DNA of 64,000 nt. Origin: Luteithermobacter gelatinilyticus (GTDB taxonomy: Bacteria > Pseudomonadota > Alphaproteobacteria > Sphingomonadales > Emcibacteraceae). The translations under genes were made by a program, and so were the position numbers. The notes beneath the pieces were generated by a model. It searched no databases and was not told the origin of the DNA. It saw nothing but the letters and a program-made list of their open reading frames with translations. The stretch is from contig NZ_CP040517.1 in NCBI RefSeq assembly GCF_005849285.1, positions 1,556,501 to 1,620,500 of the forward strand, in the 5' to 3' direction. This document shows positions 38,786 to 39,520 of the stretch, one piece after another (position 1 is the stretch's first letter; each line of letters opens with the position of its first letter).

Positions 38786-38797
38786 TAGGGTGAATTG
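38786..38797. repeat. Degenerate half copy of the type A arm
   Basis: TAGGGTGAATTG differs by one base from the type A arm and lies 15 bp before full copy 4, in front of GGGGTCAGATTGACTC. It looks like a remnant of another copy with its loop and second arm lost. Confidence 0.5.
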
Positions 38798-38812
38798 GGG
38801 TCAGATTGACTC

Positions 38813-38850
38813 TAGAGTGAATTGAGCCAACCTCTTCACAATTCACTCTA
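38813..38850 (-). repeat. Type A palindromic repeat, copy 4 (in palindrome cluster)
   Basis: Arms TAGAGTGAATTG and CAATTCACTCTA are perfect; on the minus strand the loop reads TGAAGAGGTTGGCT. It lies upstream of the KefB/C-type gene and about 160 bp downstream of the hypothetical gene. Its right end shares a CTAG with the next palindrome. It is the only full type A copy not at a convergent junction and not on a stop codon. Confidence 0.94.
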
Positions 38851-38922
38851 GTCTTCTGACTCTGAAATTCGTATCATATTTGTAGCAGGCTATTCGAATT
38901 TCAGAGTCAACAAGAAGACTAG
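38848..38922. repeat. Type B palindrome bounded by CTAG
   Basis: CTAG at both ends (38848-38851 and 38919-38922). Outer stem TAGTCTTCT / AGAAGACTA (9 bp); a 4-nt bulge AACA on the right side only (38909-38912); inner stem GACTCTGAAATTCG / CGAATTTCAGAGTC (14 bp, perfect); loop of 23 nt. It shares its left CTAG with type A copy 4. Confidence 0.93.
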
Positions 38923-38936
38923 TTAATTATTTGACT

Positions 38937-39014
38937 CTAGTGTGGTTTCTGAATTTGAAGCTCCTAAGTCGTATGACATAATCAATAACAGGAACTTCAA
39001 ATTCACCACACTAG
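38937..39014. repeat. Type C palindrome bounded by CTAG, ending on a stop codon
   Basis: CTAG at both ends (38937-38940 and 39011-39014). Outer stem TAGTGTGGT / ACCACACTA (9 bp); a 4-nt bulge TTCT on the left side only (38947-38950); inner stem GAATTTGAAG / CTTCAAATTC (10 bp), continued after one mismatch by TCCT / AGGA; loop of about 24 nt. The right CTAG contains the TAG stop of the hypothetical gene. The plan is the same as type B, in reverse orientation. Confidence 0.93.
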
Positions 39015-39520
39015 CGCGCCGTCATCATTCTGAGGCTCTCTAGAGACAGCTCTGCCCAGCCATCAGGAGGCAGACGGTTCGTCCGCAAATATCCGGCCTC
39101 ATCAACAGCAAAAGCCAGGCTGTAAGACAAAGAATGGGTCATCAGACTGTACGTCTCCCCGCCGCCCAGAAGGAATAATACATAAGCTGTTTGGGGACGA
39201 AAATACGCGCTGATCAACTGCCCCGGCAGCTTCACCTGAAGAGGTGACGCAACATTTGCCTCCGGAGGGCCTTTCAGAACCTCAACAATTTCAAAATACC
39301 TTACGGGACGCTGATCTCGCGGTCCCGAGACCACCGGCGCCGAAACAGGGCGCGCCAGAACAACCATGGCGGCCATATCAAAAGCCTCGCGCGCCGTGCC
39401 GCTGAAAATAGTTAACTCCTGGGCCATATATGGAGGATCAAGGGCTATGGCCCTGCCCGGCATCACTGCGGACAAGGCCATTGCTGTAATAATCAGATAT
39501 TGTCTGAACCTGCGTTTCAT
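39011..39520 (-). CDS. Hypothetical secreted protein next to the PEP-CTERM gene
   Basis: 169 residues, not recognised. The N-terminus (RQYLIITAMALSAVMPGRAIA) is a signal peptide. The mature part reads ELTIFSGTAREAFDMAAMVVLARPVSA... with a beta-rich segment, VRYFEIVEVLKGP, resembling the 'VLKG' pattern of small OB- or NTR-like secreted domains; this resemblance is weak. No cysteines or metal motifs stand out. It is 16 bp downstream of the PEP-CTERM-like metalloprotease gene, probably in the same operon. Its TAG stop lies in the type C palindrome. Confidence 0.72.
   Translation of the reverse strand: MKRRFRQYLIITAMALSAVMPGRAIALDPPYMAQELTIFSGTAREAFDMAAMVVLARPVSAPVVSGPRDQRPVRYFEIVEVLKGPPEANVASPLQVKLPGQLISAYFRPQTAYVLFLLGGGETYSLMTHSLSYSLAFAVDEAGYLRTNRLPPDGWAELSLESLRMMTAR

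Follow-up and report, generated by a model that had tools for sequence, protein, structure and literature searches.

Between positions 38786 and 39014 of the 64,000-nucleotide stretch of Luteithermobacter gelatinilyticus DNA analyzed here (the window), three palindromes, A, B and C, stand side by side together with a partial copy of the first. This arrangement raises the question of whether one junction collected three independent elements or whether some of the palindromes belong together, and by what means they arrived. A preliminary description placed a half A, a full A, B and C in this interval, and all four palindromes were found there, the half A being a short degenerate copy; the single CTAG said to be common to A and B was borne out by the sequence. 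Folded as single-stranded DNA and compared with dinucleotide shuffles, A gave a z of -6.4 and B and C gave lower values still (Table 1), and 0 of 200 shuffles folded equally well for any of the three. The palindromes are real and far above chance expectation.

Table 1. Features of the A-B-C locus, with positions counted from the first letter of the window
Feature	Positions	Strand	Basis or remark
Degenerate short A-type copy (half A), TA-GGGTGAATTGGGGTCAGATTGACTC-TA	38788..38812	.	sequence; similar half copy at genome 1242300, likewise beside a full A
A element, 34 bp with a TA on either side (40 bp counting both CTAGs)	38815..38848	.	MITE of the IS630-family IS at genome 116228 and 3066670
B-C unit minus flanking TA	38851..39011	-	38848-39014 including both CTAGs; on the strand given, C is hairpin 1 and B is hairpin 2
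Hairpin B (hairpin 2 of the family), outer end left	38848..38922	.	fold z -7.8, pair counts
4-nt insertion in the linker-facing arm of B (its register may shift by one base)	38909..38913	.	fold; 3-4 nt in nearly all relatives
B-C linker TTAATTATTTGACT, 14 nt	38923..38936	.	relatives almost all 12-14 nt
Hairpin C (hairpin 1 of the family), outer end right	38937..39014	.	fold z -7.5, pair counts
4-nt insertion in the linker-facing arm of C	38946..38949	.	fold and relatives
Flanking ORF, 169 aa; its TAG stop falls in the right-hand CTAG of the B-C unit	39011..39520	-	ORF coordinates

The A element has the form CTAG-AGTGAATTG..CAATTCACT-CTAG. Its exact arms occur at 19 places in the 3.15-Mb single-contig genome, and its end, ATTCACTCTA, occurs 176 times per strand, compared with one occurrence of a reversed control; counts for the whole genome come from searches and from individual stretches of it. 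An IS630-family insertion sequence (Pfam DDE_3) is present in two copies that are 98.8% identical (genome 116228 and 3066670); its left end, TAGAGTGAATTGTGAAAAGGTTGGG, is nearly the same as A's own end, which matches the IS end GAGTGAATTGTGAAAAGGTTGG. At the borders of A the TA is constant and the next base outward varies (CTA 22, TTA 13; TAG 23, TAA 14), counts that include some mis-registered matches of the pattern search. Because of the near-identical IS end and the constant TA at the borders, A is a 34-bp IS630-type MITE flanked by TA and built from the end of this IS. In both copies of the A-type IS (L079 at 3066670 and L080 at 116228), a run of eight A residues divides the transposase into two overlapping frames, and programmed frameshifting may operate there. 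A longer MITE of about 270 bp with A-type ends and the inner segment CTGTTGGCGGATTGTGG...CCAGACCTGACCGGCAGAATG is also present in several copies (L020, L040, L012), for example at genome 941411-941677, 2903882-2904150 and 3113000-3113266.

A search of the genome with B-C recovered 12 full copies (identity 95-100% in eleven and 88% in the twelfth), together with one copy covering positions 1-158 of the query and several broken copies, in one of which the CTAG between B and C is occupied by another insertion sequence. In all full copies B and C are joined by the same 14-nt spacer, and DNA searches of this genome found neither B nor C as an independent full element. Since the 12 full copies keep B, linker and C together, B and C are halves of one dispersed unit, not two elements. 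The unit is 163 bp long (167 bp counting both CTAGs), has the order CTAG-hairpin-linker-hairpin-CTAG and carries no transposase gene of its own; no ORF of at least 80 aa spans it. The design attributed to both hairpins, with CTAG ends, an outer stem of 9-10 bp and a one-sided 4-nt insertion, was seen in each, but their sequences are not unrelated, as had been thought: the outer ends CTAGTCTTCTGACTCTGAAATTC and CTAGTGTGGTGAATTTGAAGTTC represent one motif with seven variable positions and fit the single pattern CTAGTSTKSTGAMTYTGAARTTC, and the arms of B and C have TA-G-T-N5-GANTYTGAARTTC in common. The inverted arrangement of C relative to B is likewise present, but it reflects the symmetry of one unit in which each hairpin carries its insertion on the arm toward the linker.

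It is hardly credible, then, that three unrelated elements chose the same junction independently and that B and C converged on one geometry. A is indeed a separate element, and CTAG junctions do attract several elements, but B and C, with related arms and the same linker, always occur together. Two chimeric copies (L018 and L069, at genome 3047692 and 1852274), in which a B or C arm runs straight into an A end, were likely produced by recombination at the shared GTGAATT or CTAG.

The B-C layout extends well beyond this genome. The end pattern CTAGTSTKSTGAMTYTGAARTTC matched 75 stretches in named genomes over a search space of 257 Gb, in which we estimate about 0.5 chance matches; the carriers included Roseibium sediminicola, Martelella mediterranea, Brucella daejeonensis, Caulobacteraceae, Paramagnetospirillum and Rhodospirillaceae, among others. 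Most of these matches consist of hairpin 1, a linker of about 13 nt and hairpin 2, with CTAG at both outer borders and a total length of 163-171 bp, and a shorter group (118-133 bp) is laid out alike, as two hairpins with small loops. Standard elements carry a 3-4-nt insertion (rarely 2 or 5 nt) in each of the two arms that face the linker, which itself measures 12-14 nt except in one decayed element (10 nt). A covariance model detected the layout in at least 21 of 385 species genomes of Alphaproteobacteria, from 18 genera and 15 families (a minimum, as seven candidates were scored in each genome), and in 7 of 40 genomes from the family of one Caulobacteraceae carrier. The spread of the family is patchy, since 15 families carry the element while BLAST of 31 genomes from the family of the window organism itself found no copy, except for one 24-nt match. 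Searches of phage records for an origin of B-C returned no match.

In an alignment of 26 diverse elements, 96.3% of cells were paired over 49 pairs, compared with 23-42% in slid controls, and 26 of the 49 pairs were altered on both sides, with a covariation score of 0.305 versus 0.116 after shuffling. The geometry is real and clearly recurs, in further B-C elements of this genome and in many Alphaproteobacteria, where it is kept by compensatory changes. GANTC sites, located in the stems, were present in 25 of the 26 aligned elements. Brucella daejeonensis holds two double-hairpin subfamilies in one genome, with the end classes CTAGTGTGGT and CTAGTGGTCT/CTAGTGGATT (L298-L301 versus L085).

The ends of the family point to the enzyme that may have moved it. 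When a Roseibium element was compared with plasmids by BLAST, whole elements were recovered as well as the right end of an insertion sequence annotated as IS630 family in Rhizobium and Agrobacterium (left end CTAGTCACCCGGAACTAAAGTAGGCATCA, right end CTAGTCACCCGAATCTGAAGTTCGGCTCATTG). The Martelella hairpin-2 end, CTAGTCACCCGAATCTGAAGTTCGTCTCATTG, is identical to the Rhizobium IS630 right end at 31 of 32 nt, and the Roseibium end at 28 of 31; the IS630 left ends resemble the MITE ends less than the right ends do. Relatives of the Rhizobium IS630 transposase (P0001) have ends of the form TA-GT-N5-G with the same 7-nt spacing, and the ends of this subgroup show the same classes as the MITE ends, such as CTAGTCTTCTGA (the B end), CTAGTGTGGTG (the C end), CTAGTGTCCCG and CTAGTGGTCTG. 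For example, CTAGTCTTCTGAGTC in Streptomyces is comparable to B and CTAGTGTGGTG in Pseudomonas syringae to C, while CTAGTGTCCCG occurs in Methylibium and CTAGTGGTCTGAGTTAGAAGTTC in Roseomonas. The best in-register match of 78 MITE outer ends to 17 subgroup ends covered a mean of 15.5 of 22 positions, compared with 8.6 for shuffled ends; the mean was 10.3 of 22 against the ends of other IS630 elements, and 10.4 of 22 when the MITE inner ends were read in place against the subgroup ends. Since, read as duplex DNA, the outer ends agree in register with the termini of the IS630 subgroup, the earlier proposal that structure is what is recognized is not needed. Elements of about 130-550 bp in a gammaproteobacterial MAG (L139, L117) and in Acidobacteria MAGs (L081, L123, L124, L136) have ends like CTAGTGTGGTGAATCTGAAGTTCG and no double-hairpin layout; these represent further kinds of MITE, found beyond the Alphaproteobacteria, whose ends belong to the same IS630 subgroup.

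The genome of the window organism contains no intact transposase of the matching IS630 subgroup and only a relic at position 955004, which is 70% identical to the C-terminal part of P0001 and, read from its right end, gives CCAGTGAGGTGAATCGAAAATTCGCCTCAT, near the Roseibium hairpin-1 end CTAGTGTGGTGAATTTGAAATTCGCCTCAT. Among 22 carrier genomes, 11 had no DDE_3 match, including Roseibium sediminicola with its many near-identical copies. The 20 DDE_3 loci found in carrier genomes had no end pair matching their own MITEs beyond chance, apart from one weak end (21 of 30) in one genome. In carriers now without a transposase, the enzyme may have been lost after bursts of transposition or may have been supplied by plasmids.

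Of the transposase families suggested previously, IS630 fits, and RAYT and IS200/IS605 showed no link to the elements. One-sided-bulge hairpins paired in opposite orientation in intergenic DNA do resemble BIMEs, and the genome has one Y1 transposase gene, as would be expected if REP/BIME-like units were moved by a single-strand transposase (HUH, RAYT, IS200/IS605) that recognizes hairpins. However, this sole Y1 gene is flanked by another repeat, GGGGACAGTATACTATTT, and not by A, B or C, and B-C has no linked RAYT and no GTAG tag, with CTAG/TA at both ends and termini that match a DDE-type IS. Such an origin is very improbable and is largely refuted. The Y1/RAYT-like gene itself (L044, genome 713439-716759), ringed by GGGGACAGTATACTATTT, adjoins an antitoxin/PIN-toxin-like gene pair.

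We propose that B-C is probably one non-autonomous element (MITE) of the IS630/Tc1-mariner type, in which only the outer ends can be cut and the double hairpin moves whole. The outer arm of each hairpin would be a functional transposon end, consisting of TA, G-T-N5 and then the box GANTYTGAARTTCG for transposase binding, and the inner arm would be an inverted copy of the same end with 3-4 nt inserted between cut site and box. TA and box are separated by 7 nt in the two outer ends and by 10-11 nt in the two inner ends, and because the inner ends are mis-spaced in this way the unit would be expected to move whole. The 3-4-nt shift would place the inner ends beyond the catalytic site, the transposase would cut at the two outer TAs only, and the unit would then enter another TA, preferably one within CTAG. 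Activity of all four ends is disfavored, the inner ends being out of register. Three single-hairpin derivatives (L293, L295, L296), two of which join both outer arms, have the 7-nt spacing at both ends and, by keeping it, support the view that inner ends are dead. On the other side, one of the CTAG boundaries of the solitary hairpin L297 is formed by an inner-type end with the wrong spacing, which may reflect either use of an inner end, contrary to the model, or a deletion. We regard the case for dead inner ends as about evenly balanced.

If the inner ends are dead, the lasting complementarity of the inner arms is not accounted for by transposition alone. Candidate causes are selection on the fold, palindrome repair in replication, or a transposase that binds all four boxes. 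The second of these, in which arms of an otherwise plain IS630 MITE stay complementary through repair of imperfect palindromes by template switching, with no structural selection, would explain three Roseibium sediminicola elements (L108, L111, L112) in which hairpin 1 is a perfect palindrome lacking the 4-nt insertion. As a general account it is doubtful: repair of this kind would erase the insertion too, yet both inner arms retain the 3-4 nt in many families. Something appears to maintain the insertion, because repair would otherwise remove it.

Selection on the fold would mean that the same mobile unit has its arm pairing preserved as RNA hairpins that stop or protect transcripts at gene ends, or as protein-bound cruciforms, the insertion being a structural part and not a spacing lock. 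The strong compensatory change in both hairpins, including the inner arms, agrees with this, as does the position of many copies exactly at stop codons: where an open frame of 100 codons or more runs into a junction (56 junction sides), it terminates at the boundary TAG in 33 cases, versus 9 and 14 in the other frames. However, this comparison is uncontrolled for CTAG itself, which is likely frequent at stop codons, so the bias may reflect target choice only. Moreover, in the two hairpins the insertion occurs at one and the same position of the IS end and its sequence varies freely, the outer ends match IS630 termini as sequence, and an Rfam search found no matching family, giving only weak miRNA-like matches far below the cut-offs. 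We consider selection on the fold unlikely as the main explanation.

Returning to the IS630 reading, the family could consist of long-lived double-hairpin parasites of IS630 transposases with a spacing lock, in which inverted copies of the end are kept as hairpin arms and disabled by 3-4 bp between cut site and box, so that the unit always moves whole and arm pairing persists in many bacterial families; the same layout may explain the movement of CIR elements (see below). We put this forward tentatively, as a possibility that falls short of an even chance.

IS630-derived MITEs are already known, as is a two-armed, TA-ended repeat with a linker in Alphaproteobacteria (CIR) (PMC2229807, PMC3049150); RUP and CIR are the nearest known relatives of B-C in kind. 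RUP, the repeat unit of pneumococcus, is an IS630-Spn1-derived MITE and, like B-C, is short and non-autonomous, with TA at its ends and ends like those of an IS630-family IS (PMC2229807, PMC3049150). It differs in being 107 bp long with terminal repeats paired to each other, whereas B-C has two hairpins, each made of an end and an inverted mis-spaced copy, and belongs to a family that spans many alphaproteobacterial families. The CcrM-associated intergenic repeats of Caulobacter (CIR1-4), as summarized in a 2007 review, are about 110 bp long and consist of two inverted-repeat arms and a linker, with TA ends and GANTC (PMC2229807). They thus share with B-C the two linked arms, the TA ends, the GANTC sites and the alphaproteobacterial hosts; compared by description only, they differ in their length, in having GANTC at the terminal loop and in having no IS partner known from that account, while B-C elements are mostly 163-171 bp (118-133 bp in the short group) with GANTC in the stems as part of an IS630-type end. 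In the same review, the two-armed CIR repeats are described as only partly MITE-like and their manner of movement as unknown (PMC2229807).

As far as the literature searched shows, what is new here is the link between a two-armed family and a defined IS630 subgroup, the breadth of that family and the constant offset of inner-end spacing. The IS630-matching ends suggest how double-hairpin repeats move, and the combination of a two-armed layout with ends of a defined subgroup reduces the question of CIR-type mobility to a test with one transposase. The constant 3-4-nt inner-arm offset also provides a testable prediction of how Tc1/mariner-type transposases distinguish live from dead ends. In Tc1/mariner elements, IS630 among them, the transposase attaches to the terminal repeat, in ISY100 by way of two helix-turn-helix units, and cuts beside the TA (PMC2170065). 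IS630 and ISY100, of the Tc1-mariner superfamily, duplicate a TA target, as B-C may also do; they are autonomous, whereas B-C lacks a gene and has extra inverted copies of its ends.

For two filled sites of R. sediminicola, the corresponding sequence of a relative, 81-85% identical, runs on without interruption. Where the filled site reads CTAG-element-CTAG, the empty site has one tetranucleotide, given as CAAG or CAG, in keeping with a single copy of the target; with relatives this diverged, the duplicated bases may be TA or CTAG. IS630 prefers TA within CTAG (Tenzen and Ohtsubo 1991, as cited in PMC2170065), and CTAG is depleted in the window, with 28 occurrences versus 93 expected. With CTAG scarce, the ends of resident elements would become favored targets, and clusters such as A-BC would grow. 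Every insertion into CTAG would leave a CTAG on each side, which would explain the shared CTAGs and the tandems: B-C-type copies with a common CTAG stand three in a row in B. daejeonensis (L298) and as pairs at four further loci (L299-L302), in Brucella daejeonensis and Roseibium. Insertion of the IS630 type into CTAG would thus account for the build-up of elements at CTAG junctions, and the suggestion that one junction attracts several elements holds, both for these tandems and for A adjoining B-C.

Seven of 13 near-full B-C copies, and one split copy, adjoin an A end. Much of this pattern is accounted for because CTAG is scarce and A-type ends are numerous; a special preference of B-C for A termini, also considered, was set aside on the ground that target scarcity covers much of it. 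At the abutments of A and B-C (genome 1595286, 577858, 585961, 2896046, 3111324, 2312885 and 1184626), A always lies on the B side and mostly in the same orientation, and no B-C copy in this genome adjoins A by its C side. Several insertions of the B-C type, found in Roseibium, Brucella and this genome (L088, L130, L142, L145, L154, L095 and L302, and genome 1184799) adjoin GGTCCTGACC (GGTCAGGACC), apparently the end of another CTAG-flanked repeat.
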